64,000 nucleotides of DNA from Acanthopleura granulata. Its lineage: Eukaryota; Mollusca; Polyplacophora; Chitonida; Chitonidae. Numbering within the stretch: position 1 is the first letter of the stretch; every line of letters begins with the position of its first letter. This document shows, one piece after another, positions 2,096 through 51,100 of the stretch. The stretch lies in the NCBI GenBank assembly GCA_016165875.1, contig JABBOT010000002.1, positions 32,890,997-32,954,996 on the forward strand, read 5' to 3'. The translations under genes were made by a program, and so were the position numbers. The notes beneath the pieces were generated by a model. That model was not told the origin of the DNA. It worked only from the letters and a program-made list of their open reading frames with translations, and made no database searches.

Positions 2096-2281
2096 ATGAA
2101 GGGTTTTATTGCATCTGCAGTCTTCGCCGTCAGCCTCCTCCATGTGGATGGATTCTCTCGCTACACTACACTGATCCCGAATGGGAACCGGGTGCCTAAC
2201 CCTTGTGCTGGGGGAGGGATCTGGCCAGCCGTGGGACATAATGCTCTTGCAGGAGGCGGCCCCAGGAACGCATTCGGCGCG
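2096..2281 (+). CDS. temptin-like exon 1
   Basis: 62 codons with the signal peptide and the IPNG...NPC and GGGPRN motifs. The start ATG is the first in the frame. The donor GTAAGA follows GCG at 2,281, phase 0. Confidence 0.88.
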
Positions 2282-5200
2282 GTAAGATTCGACTACAACC
2301 TTTTCCAAAACTAGACCAACTGTCCATATATATTTATTCGTACAATATCACTGTATATCAAAGTAGGCTTCACCTTTTCCAAAGTGGATTTACCTATAGG
2401 ATAAGACAATATGTTCTGCGGCTGCAAATTTTATTGACCTTAGCCGCCAAGCTTAAACTTTGAAGCGTTATCTCATTTTATTACCATACCAATAGTCGCC
2501 ATTTATGGTTCTACTGTTACAGCAATAAAGACTGAAAGTTTCAACTTGTCGGCTATATGCCTACAACATACTCTTACAACCATAAAGTCTGTTCAGTTTG
2601 TGTTTACAGGCATTTAGAGCGAACGGTTACATCTGGAATCCTGCCCTCTGCCAGGCGGACTCCGACGGAGATGGTGTCACTAACGGTGCCGAACTGGGCG
2701 ATCGCCTGTGCCAGTGGACCCCCGGATCAAACCGTCCCCTGACTAACCCCAGAGGTCATCCAGGTATGCATGATTGAGTGATAGGCAGGAAATAACTGCA
2801 TCCTTATAGATAAGTGAAGGTGGGCGACAGGCGCTTTACCTGTCATTTTAATTGTTCAGTTATGCAACTCGCTGGGCCAATCAATCAAATCTTCCTTCTG
2901 AATCTATATATCATGTCTGTGAAGCATTGATTTTCTCTTTCCATTTTGACTTTTCCGCACCTAACGATGTTAACCACTCGAGCCAATAATCCAATAGTGT
3001 GGGTGATGGAACCATGCCACGTAAATAGCACTATCAAAGGCCAGAAACCCGCATCTGCATGCATATGTAAAGACATGATAGTGTATCCGTTTAGGATAGA
3101 ATCCACACAGTCACACTGGTGATTAAGAACTCTGCAGACTTTATATAACATGTTATCTAATTATCTAGGGTATCGCTGTGTAAAGACATTTTAGGAATCA
3201 ATGAAACGTAAAATCGGGAACTGTCTAATTTTATCTTAATTATGATTTCATATCAGTTTGATACATTTTCGTATATCCAAATTCTAGTAACAATCGATTA
3301 TGATGTCATATCAGTTTGATACATTTTCGTATATCCAAATTCTAGTAACAATCTATTATGTGTCATATCAGTTTGATACATTTTCGTATATCCAAATTCT
3401 AGTGACAATCAATTAAATTCAGCGGAAATATGTAAAATGTGACAGTCACAAAAATCTCACATTGTTGTTTCTTCTAATGGTTAGTTGCACAAAGTCCAGT
3501 GTATTCTGTGTGGTATATATGTTGGCTTAAACTACCAGATGAGGACAAATGTCTTTCTTCATGGGTTGATAACGCAGGAGTCAAAGCAATGGCCTTCTCC
3601 ATCAGTCGCCTGACTGAAATTGAACTCACTGACGTGAACATACTTTTAATGAAGCTACAAAAATTGGATTGGTCCGTGATGGAAAGTTGTTTACAGACCA
3701 ATGTTCCTTGGGTTTTTTGTCTTGTGTACGCTCTGTGGTGTAAATAGTAACATTTATTTATTTATTTATTCATTTATTTATTCATTTATTTATTTATTTA
3801 TGTCAGACAGCTCAACAGACCTATGTGTAACGTTGCTACTTTATGCTATGAAATGAGTGTCCACACCAAAATGTTTCAGGAAGAAAATTTTGGAAAATGG
3901 GTGTAAATTTCTCTCGACAATGATTATCAAACACAGTTGACGACGGCACAAGGACGATTGGTTATTTTGGGGAGCCAGCTGTTGTGACTTGTGATAAATT
4001 CTCACATGCAGTGCAATTAAACTATCTCTTGGTTTCTTCTCTGATTTTCAGGTATTTGTGAACCTCTGAACTCCCGCAGATGCAGAAACCAGGTTGCCCC
4101 GTGTATTCAGTAATTGTAACTGATATCTTAGTTGCAGAAAATCGATATTGTGACATAAACATGTGATTGTACGACAGTTGTGATTTAAAAATAAATGCTC
4201 TCTCTGTACATACATCTGAATCTCCAGAGTTTGTGTTGACTGTTTCTGCTACAGGACAAGACGTGCACCGTGGATTATGTTGCCATCTTGCAATGATTAC
4301 GCCTTCGCACGGCGTGTTATCTGAAGTTATGATCATATGCTTGCGTATCGAGTATTAAGTATTTCCACATAAAGAGGCAGACAATATGAACTTTACAGCA
4401 AATATTTTACAGCCCAACCTTGCATCTGCTGAATAATTGTTTCTTCTCCTGAATGATATTCTCGATCCTTTTAACAATGGTTTACATGACCTTTGTACTT
4501 GTATTTCTAGTTTTAATTTTTCTGTCACTCTAGTGGACATCCTGTGATTACATTCCTTCTGATGAATGGATGGTTAATTGTAGCGGTGGTTTACTTTCCT
4601 TTGTACACACGTTTAAAGTTTTATGTCTTCTGTCCGGTTTTAAATTAAAGGAAAGGGTGGCTATTAACAGATTCTACCCAATAGACAGGTACATGACAAA
4701 TGTTGTATGCATGTGTAAAAACACGAGATCTATGTTACACATTTCGTCAAAAACCAAATTTATAAACAAATGAACGGACTTTGGACAGATAATGAACCTT
4801 TTCCTTTGACCCCTTAGCAGTGCTATCACAAGGCTGGGTCAAACCTATTGACTATGGCGGCGATTATTTCTTTACCGTGCAGGTGGTGTAAAGGGATTCG
4901 TCCTACAGAGCCATGGCAACGCTACGTCAAGCGCAGCTATCAGGGTGACCGTATCTCTTGTGCATGTGTTACCTTGGACGTAACGTCGTGCCCATATTGC
5001 AACTGCCTCGAAAGACGTGCCTCAGATTACGCTATAGGCGCTCGTTTGAACTTCTCCATAAAACGATTCCTAGGCCACCCCTACGAACAACATCAGTACA
5101 TGCACCTTGTTCAGACGCTTTACCTTTGGTCGTTGCAGGTATTTGCGAGCCTATTGGTTCAGCCGTGTGTAGAGTCCAGGGGTGTGGGGCAGGGAGTCAG

Positions 5201-48100: not shown

Positions 48101-51100
48101 AACATGGACTTTAACCAGAACACCTGTGGCTGTGGCCTGAGCCTACCTGAGATTCTCTACCCTCTCTGTACACCTATACAGCAGACCCTCAGGTAACAGG
48201 GACTTTAACCAGAACACCTGTGGCTGTGACCTGAGCCTACCTGAGATTCTCTCCCCCCTCCGTACACTTATACAGCAGACCCTCAGGTAAGTGGGACACA
48301 AAGTTCTTCAGGTGAGCATGTTCCAGTGACTTCCACACCTCCTCGTCTGTGTGGGCATCAAATGGGTCGAGGTTCATCCTCAATGTTCCAGCAAACAACA
48401 CTGGGTCCTGAAACAGGCAAACATGTGCCAGAGAAATACAAATGGGGCAAGTGTTTACATGAACATTGCAAGTGTTTACACGTACAAGGTATTCCTTAAC
48501 AGGTACATGGTAAGTGTCCACAGGTAAAAGGTCAGTTTCAACAGGTGCTTAAATAAGTGTCTACATGCAGCAGGGTACATGTAAGTCTTAGCATTACAGA
48601 TACAGGTTGACCTTAACAGGTATAGGGGTAAATGTTTACAGTTACATAAGTAAGTTTCAACAAGTAACAAGTCTTAACAGGTACACAGTCTTTATAAGGT
48701 AAATCTTCAGTAAGCATTTCTGAGTTCCAAGAGAATTCATTACAAGTGTGTTACTTCTAACACAGGCATGATCAGTGTAGCTAATACTTGCGGTCAGTGA
48801 TCACTTACCTGAGGGATAATGGTGATCTTAGACCTCAGGTCATGCAGACCAATCTCAGAGATGTTGATTCCATCAATGACGATGCTTCCCCCTGCAGCTT
48901 CTATGATTCTAAATAACGCCAATGTCAGGGAGGATTTACCTGCGCCCGTTCTACCCACAATTCCAATCTGTCAACAAGAGTACATTACCTCCACTTCACA
49001 ATCATCTCTAATGGCAATACCATTACCTACATATATCACAGAGGTAATGTTCTATATCTAGACATTTCTATCTTCAGTTCCCTACATCTCTAAATCAGCA
49101 AACTGCAGCTTAAGCTACTGATTTCATTTCCACAGCAACTTTACAGTCCCAGAAAGAATTAAGAATTAAATTACTAATTAACCAATACTTTGAAGATGGA
49201 GACATAAAAACATCCCTTCCCTGAGGTGAAAACAAGTCTTTCTCATAATCTTAGTCAAATCAATCCTATCTTCAAAATGCCATTGATACTGACCTTTTCT
49301 CCAGGTGTGATTTTACAATCAATGCCCTTGAGTACCAGGTCTAGTCCCTCTCTGTAGCGGACACAGTAGTTCTCAAATTTCACAGTCCCTTCATCTGGCC
49401 ATTTTGAGCCTGGTCTGTTGTTCTCTATTATCCAGTCAGCCTACAGAATAGCAGCAGAATAGCAAAAGAATAGCAGAAACAGTCACAATATGGTCACAAT
49501 ACATGTGGCAACTCGATGGTTTCAAGATACAGGCACATAATAACTGAGCTACAAAAAGAGTCAAGATGTTAATAAAATACCTTGCTTCACATCTTTTCAT
49601 CGTCTCTAGCACGAAAACAACGCATCTTTAATATTTAAGACTTTCCCTATGACATGTTTGGAAATTCATCAGTAGACAGCGCTTTATTACAGGTTGAACA
49701 CTTCTATATTTGAAGGTATTTCTTGACCATGGGAATTGGGACTATATTAAGCATTATACTCAGCAATGGTATACACTTCTACCTCTGGGGGCGCTCATGA
49801 CTTGTGGAGATTTCAGAATGTTAATGCGTAACATGTACATGGGTCATCATTAATAGTTGACATTTTCTACCTCAGTGGGTATTCCAGGCCTGTGAAGATT
49901 TGAGTGTGAGAAGTACATGATCACAACTGGTTTACACGTCTGTGCGTGACCCTGGTCATTAACAGTTTATAATTTTCCTACCCCTTTGGGTGTTCCTGAC
50001 CATTAATAATTTACACTTTGTAGGTGTTTTTACTCAGTCATAGTTTACACTTTTCCTACCTCCATTGTAGGTGTTTCAGTTTACACTTTGCTATCTCTGT
50101 TGTGAGTCTTTCTGGCCATGAACAGTTTAATCATTTTCTCCCTCTGAGGGTGTTCCTGGCCATTACCAGTTTACACTGTACCCACCTATGGGTGTTTTAG
50201 CCATTAACAGCTTACACTTTCCTATTTCTGTTGTGTTTCTGGCCATTAACAGCTTACACTTTTCCCATTTCTGTTGTGTTTCTGGCCATTAACAGCTTAC
50301 ACTTTTCCCATTTCTGTTGTGTTCCTGGCCATTACCAGTTTACACTTTCCCATTTCTGTTGTGTTTCTGGCCATTAACAGCTTACACTTTTCCCATTTCT
50401 GTTGTGTTTCTGGCCATTAACAGCTTACACTTTTCCCATTTCTGTCGTGTTTCTGGCCATTAACAGCTTACACTTTTCCCATTTCTGTCGTGTTTCTGAC
50501 CATTAACAGTTTACCTTTTCCCATTTCTGTTGTGTTTCTGGCCATTAACAGTTTACCCTTTTCCTACCTCTGTGGGTGTTTCAGAGTACTCCTTCACTCT
50601 CTCTACAGCCACAATGTTCGTCTCCAGCTCACTGGTCATCCTCACCATCCAGTTCAGCGTTTGTGTGATCTACAGAACAGACAACAGAGAATAATATACA
50701 TAAATACACACACAAACCACCATAAAGTTGTAGCTGGTCCTTTAGAGGGCATTCATCTGCCAATAATCCTCGCATCTGTCAAATTTTGGAACAATGCAAA
50801 AGCTTCCATGCATTAATAACACCCCACATGTACCAAGTGAAAAGAGACCGTAGACGCCAACCCGAGAGACTTACACTGAGGGCATAAGTGATGGACAGCC
50901 CCACGGTACCAGGCTCCAAGGAGTCCCTCTGAATGACAGCAAATAACGAGGCAAAGAACACGATACAGTTCCCAACAAACTCCAGCCGAATGGCCAGCCA
51001 TCTGCAAAACACAAAATGTTCCTTTGTTCATGTCCATAATGGCAATTCGAAAACACCTTCCTAGCACTGTATATACATGTAATGCATCTGTATGTTAGTG

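Follow-up and report, generated by a model that had tools for sequence, protein, structure and literature searches.

Two genes in the 64,000-nt stretch of DNA analysed here (the window), an ABCC/MRP transporter and a GABA-B type receptor, contain minisatellites whose repeat units straddle exon-intron junctions. These arrays add one more case to a pattern already named and published, the "mirage" of lancelet genes. With a probability of about 0.75, they are mirage-type minisatellites built by ordinary slippage or unequal exchange and tolerated since the exon-proximal copy still splices.

The window carries temptin (plus strand), the GABA-B type receptor (plus strand) and the 3′ half of the ABCC/MRP transporter (minus strand). 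The best match of the spliced ABCC part was MRP1 (E 2e-228), and the Pfam domains ABC_membrane, ABC_tran, ANF_receptor, 7tm_3 and Temptin_C were found in the window genes. The ABCC/MRP exons listed below all have an open reading frame and an MRP1 match, and exons F, I and J also have a GT donor. For GABA-B the exon structure is modelled approximately, with several exon ends 1-3 bases off or unproven and a joined frame that is not wholly open; array overlap counts were run with two slightly different GABA-B models and the outcome was identical. When the GABA-B exon listed below was joined to the next exon, the product matched Pfam ANF_receptor with E 4.8e-07. The exons that concern us are as follows.

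50568..50669, minus strand: exon F of ABCC/MRP, with its donor at 50568
48241..48407, minus strand: exon I of ABCC/MRP, with its donor at 48241
46701..46895, minus strand: exon J of ABCC/MRP, with its donor at 46701
45011..45125, minus strand: coding part of the last ABCC/MRP exon, K
28245..28455, plus strand: exon of the GABA-B receptor, with its acceptor at 28245 and a 3′ end placed to within a base or two
5139..5323, plus strand: temptin last exon, longer version, Pfam Temptin_C E 3.1e-34

For temptin, a shorter last exon of matching phase is also possible (4052-4112); the tail of the long one (5139-5323) is rich in histidine and acidic residues.

Tandem Repeats Finder gave 18 merged arrays with units of at least 18 bp in the window, the array list and spans being set by hand from the repeat output and alignments. 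Fifteen of the 18 lie within modelled introns, and four of these 15 contain an exon-intron junction. Both sides of the border are affected, with three donors (ABCC exons F, I and J) and one acceptor (a GABA-B exon). The four arrays, and a repeat fragment beside one of them, are located as follows.

49848..50582, minus strand: 43-bp array at the exon F donor, 13 intronic copies
47446..48297, minus strand: 94-bp array at the exon I donor, 8 intronic copies, GT in all
45432..46746, minus strand: 77-bp array at the exon J donor, 15 intronic copies, decayed ones out to 45432
27767..28324, plus strand: GABA-B acceptor array, 4 intronic copies at a spacing of 110-128 bp, AG in all
47362..47443, plus strand: SINE-like element fragment, aligned to the copy at 28889-29165 with 75.5% identity in 94 columns

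The exonic share of the unit is 13-18 bp in the 43-bp array (one weak gapped alignment reaches 37), 46-57 bp in the 94-bp array and mostly 43-51 bp in the 77-bp array (21 in one copy), while the GABA-B copies include 39-79 bp of exon; for the F, I and J units the usual share is about 15, 49 and 45 bp. An initial annotation of this DNA had the arrays starting exactly at exon borders; none does, the units instead straddling the borders with ~13-79 bp of exon. In an ungapped scan (lags 18-249) of all 58 junctions of the 29 modelled introns, the four arrays scored 66-135, against a maximum shifted-copy score of 32 in 600 shuffled trials. The same scan revealed no further hidden junction duplications among the 58 modelled junctions, the next best score being 14. 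As repeats, the four junction arrays are clearly above chance.

The SINE-like fragment listed above lies directly against the 94-bp array, on the side away from exon I. Near the presumed breakpoints of the arrays, short shared words (such as GTCCC at exon I) can be picked out by eye; they are given no weight here. Comparison of one copy of the element with the window gave no match within the 43-bp, 77-bp or GABA-B arrays. Copies or fragments of this element were found at 28889-29165, 36540-36782, 19126-19279, 21058-21201, 22388-22503 and 47362-47443.

All six exon-edge duplications that had been reported from the window are present; two of them, one at the end of temptin and one in the last exon of ABCC, span stop codons and not splice junctions.

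44874..45064, minus strand: 65-bp tandem duplication of the ABCC stop codon and 3′UTR, two further copies past the stop codon
5276..5391, plus strand: temptin stop-codon duplication, 65-bp offset, 2 copies, 44/51 identical

The one further temptin copy likewise lies past the stop codon. The description of the arrays as occurring in three unrelated genes therefore stands for ABCC and GABA-B, which have junction arrays, and fails for temptin, which has a stop-codon duplication only. By alignment, duplications straddle two of the four modelled stop codons; as judged from the array list, no array lies over the other two.

Tandem duplications of exon-intron borders, termed mirages, have been described in the lancelet Adh3, globin and TnC genes (PMC3087553, PMC3902484), and lancelet PGBD5 has been likened to mirages, with TnC cited (PMC3902484). 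According to the available parts of these papers, mirages occur at 5′ and 3′ borders with units of 10-160 bp and with AG/GT in many copies, the inside of the array is homogenised to the exclusion of the end copies, RT-PCR suggests normal splicing, and length polymorphism and somatic instability are reported (PMC3087553, PMC3902484). As far as those excerpts go, the arrays described here share with lancelet mirages a unit that spans the exon-intron border (at four junctions), their occurrence at 5′ and 3′ borders, and the retention of AG/GT in many, not all, copies. Unlike the lancelet cases in Adh3, globin and TnC, the genes here are ABCC and GABA-B. It had been stated that no named system matches; the like anatomy of the lancelet mirages, even as seen in these excerpts, shows this to be wrong.

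Other comparisons are less close. In humans, internal tandem repeats found at the boundaries of exons and introns (PMC2812944) and a FAM20C VNTR across an intron-exon junction (PMC5941971) likewise place a tandem repeat over a splice junction; as a point of difference, the available text ties them to altered splicing or new introns. A potato RdRp case (PMC4974935), as described in the part available, is likewise a tandem duplication carrying splice signals; in contrast to it, the duplications here straddle existing introns. Junction-straddling arrays were not found in the available portions of a report on earthworm metallothionein intron minisatellites (PMC12783039) or of a human dopamine transporter study (PMC2883569). 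There was no report of a mollusc mirage among the matches listed from the open-licence literature, which is no proof of absence. The host is probably a mollusc, judging by the type of its SINE-like element and by its temptin gene; a protein search with a piece of GABA-B gave one protein, with the source tag 'lgn' (67% identity over 64% of the query), which does not help to place it. If the host is, as seems likely, no lancelet, mirage repeats are not peculiar to cephalochordates, and a simple count across animal genomes could decide whether tandem duplication favours exon borders. The answer would also bear on intron sliding and the origin of new introns, and on gene annotation, given the plausible splice sites in many of the copies.

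In the mechanism that we infer, a short stretch that happened to lie across an exon border would have been duplicated in tandem by slippage or template switching, and the block structure described below suggests that the copies were then multiplied and homogenised via unequal exchange or slippage. The copies accumulate on the intron side, and the genes would presumably be spliced normally. A junction duplication would be tolerated because the exon-attached copy retains a working splice site and the reading frame; a duplication inside the exon, by contrast, would be removed. The extra splice sites would be by-products. Duplications straddling a stop codon would survive in the same way as those at junctions, since the first stop stays in place.

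Tolerance alone does not explain the mild excess of arrays at junctions. Under a null in which one unit is placed per array, 4 of the 15 intronic arrays were observed at a junction against 0.64-1.39 expected (P 0.0009-0.034, post hoc), the expectation varying with the exonic overlap demanded. When random intronic points were scored identically, 11-13% of 3000 fell in tandem repeats, as compared with 4 of 58 junctions (~7%). Since each array has a single seed, the one-unit-per-array null is the fairer of the two. By the same null, 3 of 8 arrays within ABCC lie at a junction (P 0.02) and 1 of 7 outside it (P 0.32). These P values overstate the case, because the window was chosen for looking odd. 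Exon-edge placement is thus weakly above chance, by a modest and null-dependent amount, and the earlier claim that coding edges are included more often than at random is mildly supported by the seed null but not by the comparison with random intronic points.

A mutational process that prefers exon borders (for example through breakage, or through template switching where transcription pauses or R-loops form) and seeds arrays genome-wide would account for four straddling arrays where about one is expected, and for the recurrence of matching anatomy in several lancelet genes. We nevertheless regard such a process as unlikely, given that the excess comes from a single chosen window and three of its four cases from one gene, that only one of the seven arrays elsewhere is at a junction, and that junctions are in arrays less often than random intronic points are. 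Seeding at exon borders, as proposed in the initial annotation, is therefore not established by this post hoc excess. A shade more doubtful still is the broader reading in which exon borders are favoured birthplaces of arrays here as in lancelets through a border-linked process across distant phyla; equally doubtful is its corollary that such a process would keep building arrays of spare splice sites, a source of intron shifts and of new exons or introns.

Eleven of the 15 intronic arrays contain no junction at all. The units of eight of these had no match at E 0.1 to the exons plus 50 bp, the three short units at 30300, 48498 and 55431 being outside this comparison, and the other intronic arrays were accordingly rejected as old mirages as far as the eight tested units go. 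Taken together, the junction-free arrays and the eight units lacking an exon match indicate that arrays form at large in these introns. One such array, with a 26-bp unit, ~33 diverged copies and a strong strand skew (32476-33333), fills 858 of the ~1213 bases of a GABA-B intron and ends ~58 bases before the exon.

The fate of the splice signals differs between arrays. All 8 copies of the 94-bp array keep the donor GT, as do 14 of the 15 copies of the 77-bp array, the fifteenth not covering the site, and the acceptor AG is intact in 4 of 4 GABA-B copies; GT or AG is thus kept in all 26 covered copies of these three arrays, some of which are decayed. When the three were pooled, 0 of 52 motif bases differed, against 260 of 2123 bases elsewhere, for copies that are not independent. 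No other result speaks as strongly for some constraint, but the copies are related to one another. Taken array by array, motif retention had P values of 0.62 (exon I), 0.064 (exon J) and 0.21 (GABA-B). In the 43-bp array at exon F, GT is intact in only 4 of 13 copies, and eight of the nine copies lacking it form a block with one common variant. The motif was less well kept than the rest of that array (P 0.025), because those eight copies share one loss.

The conservation rank of the donor 9-mer was 6th of 69 windows in seven old 77-bp copies and 16th of 35 in five distal 43-bp copies, indicating that the donor motif is not specially kept in decayed copies. A codon-position pattern was absent from the exon-derived parts of the seven old 77-bp copies, with mismatches of 19/88, 15/90 and 14/86 at positions 1, 2 and 3. 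Translation through 20 decoy donors identified by exact motif (two at F, eight at I and ten at J) met a premature stop in every case. Past the true donor, the earliest stop in frame starts 13 (F), 2 (I) or 50 (J) bases into the intron; since it precedes the GT of all 26 GT-bearing copies, use of any decoy donor would lead to a premature stop. For all four decoy acceptors in GABA-B, a stop is met before the true exon, given the modelled frame of the upstream exon. All 30 copies with a splice site (26 donor, 4 acceptor) therefore lie past a premature stop, and the ABCC frame is open from the exon-proximal splice sites and not from the decoys. The array copies are read as non-coding and drifting, with decay that looks largely neutral.

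These results bear on selection for decoy splice sites, also suggested initially, under which the copies might have a regulatory role, for instance by feeding transcripts into decay. The intact GT or AG in every covered copy of three arrays agrees with it, and any use of a decoy would give the premature stop that a decay switch would need. Selection for decoy sites was unsupported by the windowed conservation, codon-position and read-through tests, the three-array motif retention pointing the opposite way. Given also that nine of the 13 exon F copies have lost GT, and that two stop-codon duplications lie away from any splice junction, we consider it highly improbable that the copies are kept for this role.

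In the 77-bp array, identity declines across ~1.3 kb as copies lie further from the exon (Spearman -0.72, P 0.003), bearing out the earlier remark that its copies nearest the exon are the most intact. The corresponding trend was not significant in the 43-bp array (-0.17, P 0.58) or the 94-bp array (-0.50, P 0.20). Identities of 0.80, 0.79, 0.69 and 0.79, from far to near, give no exon-ward trend in the GABA-B array. A homogenised inner block is seen in the 43-bp array, where the eight like copies without GT have GT-bearing copies beyond them; the 77-bp array shows a gradient instead. Expansion of the 43-bp block and fading of the 77-bp copies are usual minisatellite turnover. Least probable of all is that the assembler invented or inflated the copy numbers, since the copies in the junction arrays differ from one another and the 77-bp decay over ~1.3 kb is unlike simple collapse or expansion, even though copy number is easily misjudged in the perfect repeats of other arrays (51462-51759 and 58986-59161).

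The first of these perfect repeats belongs to a 44-bp intronic array (51256-52087) and is a higher-order repeat of period 151 whose copies match at 100% from 51462 to 51759, which suggests very recent turnover. The second, at 58986-59161 in an ABCC intron, consists of three identical copies of a 58-bp unit, which are either very young or a matter of assembly. On its minus strand, the ABCC gene also includes a tandem set of three homologous exons, each exactly 311 bp long and all in one phase (63240-62930, 58694-58384 and 56432-56122). All three match ABC_membrane, and in pairwise comparison 36, 39 and 56 of their 104 residues are identical. They have the look of mutually exclusive exons, which have been described in metazoan MRP genes in the available part of one report (PMC6071210).
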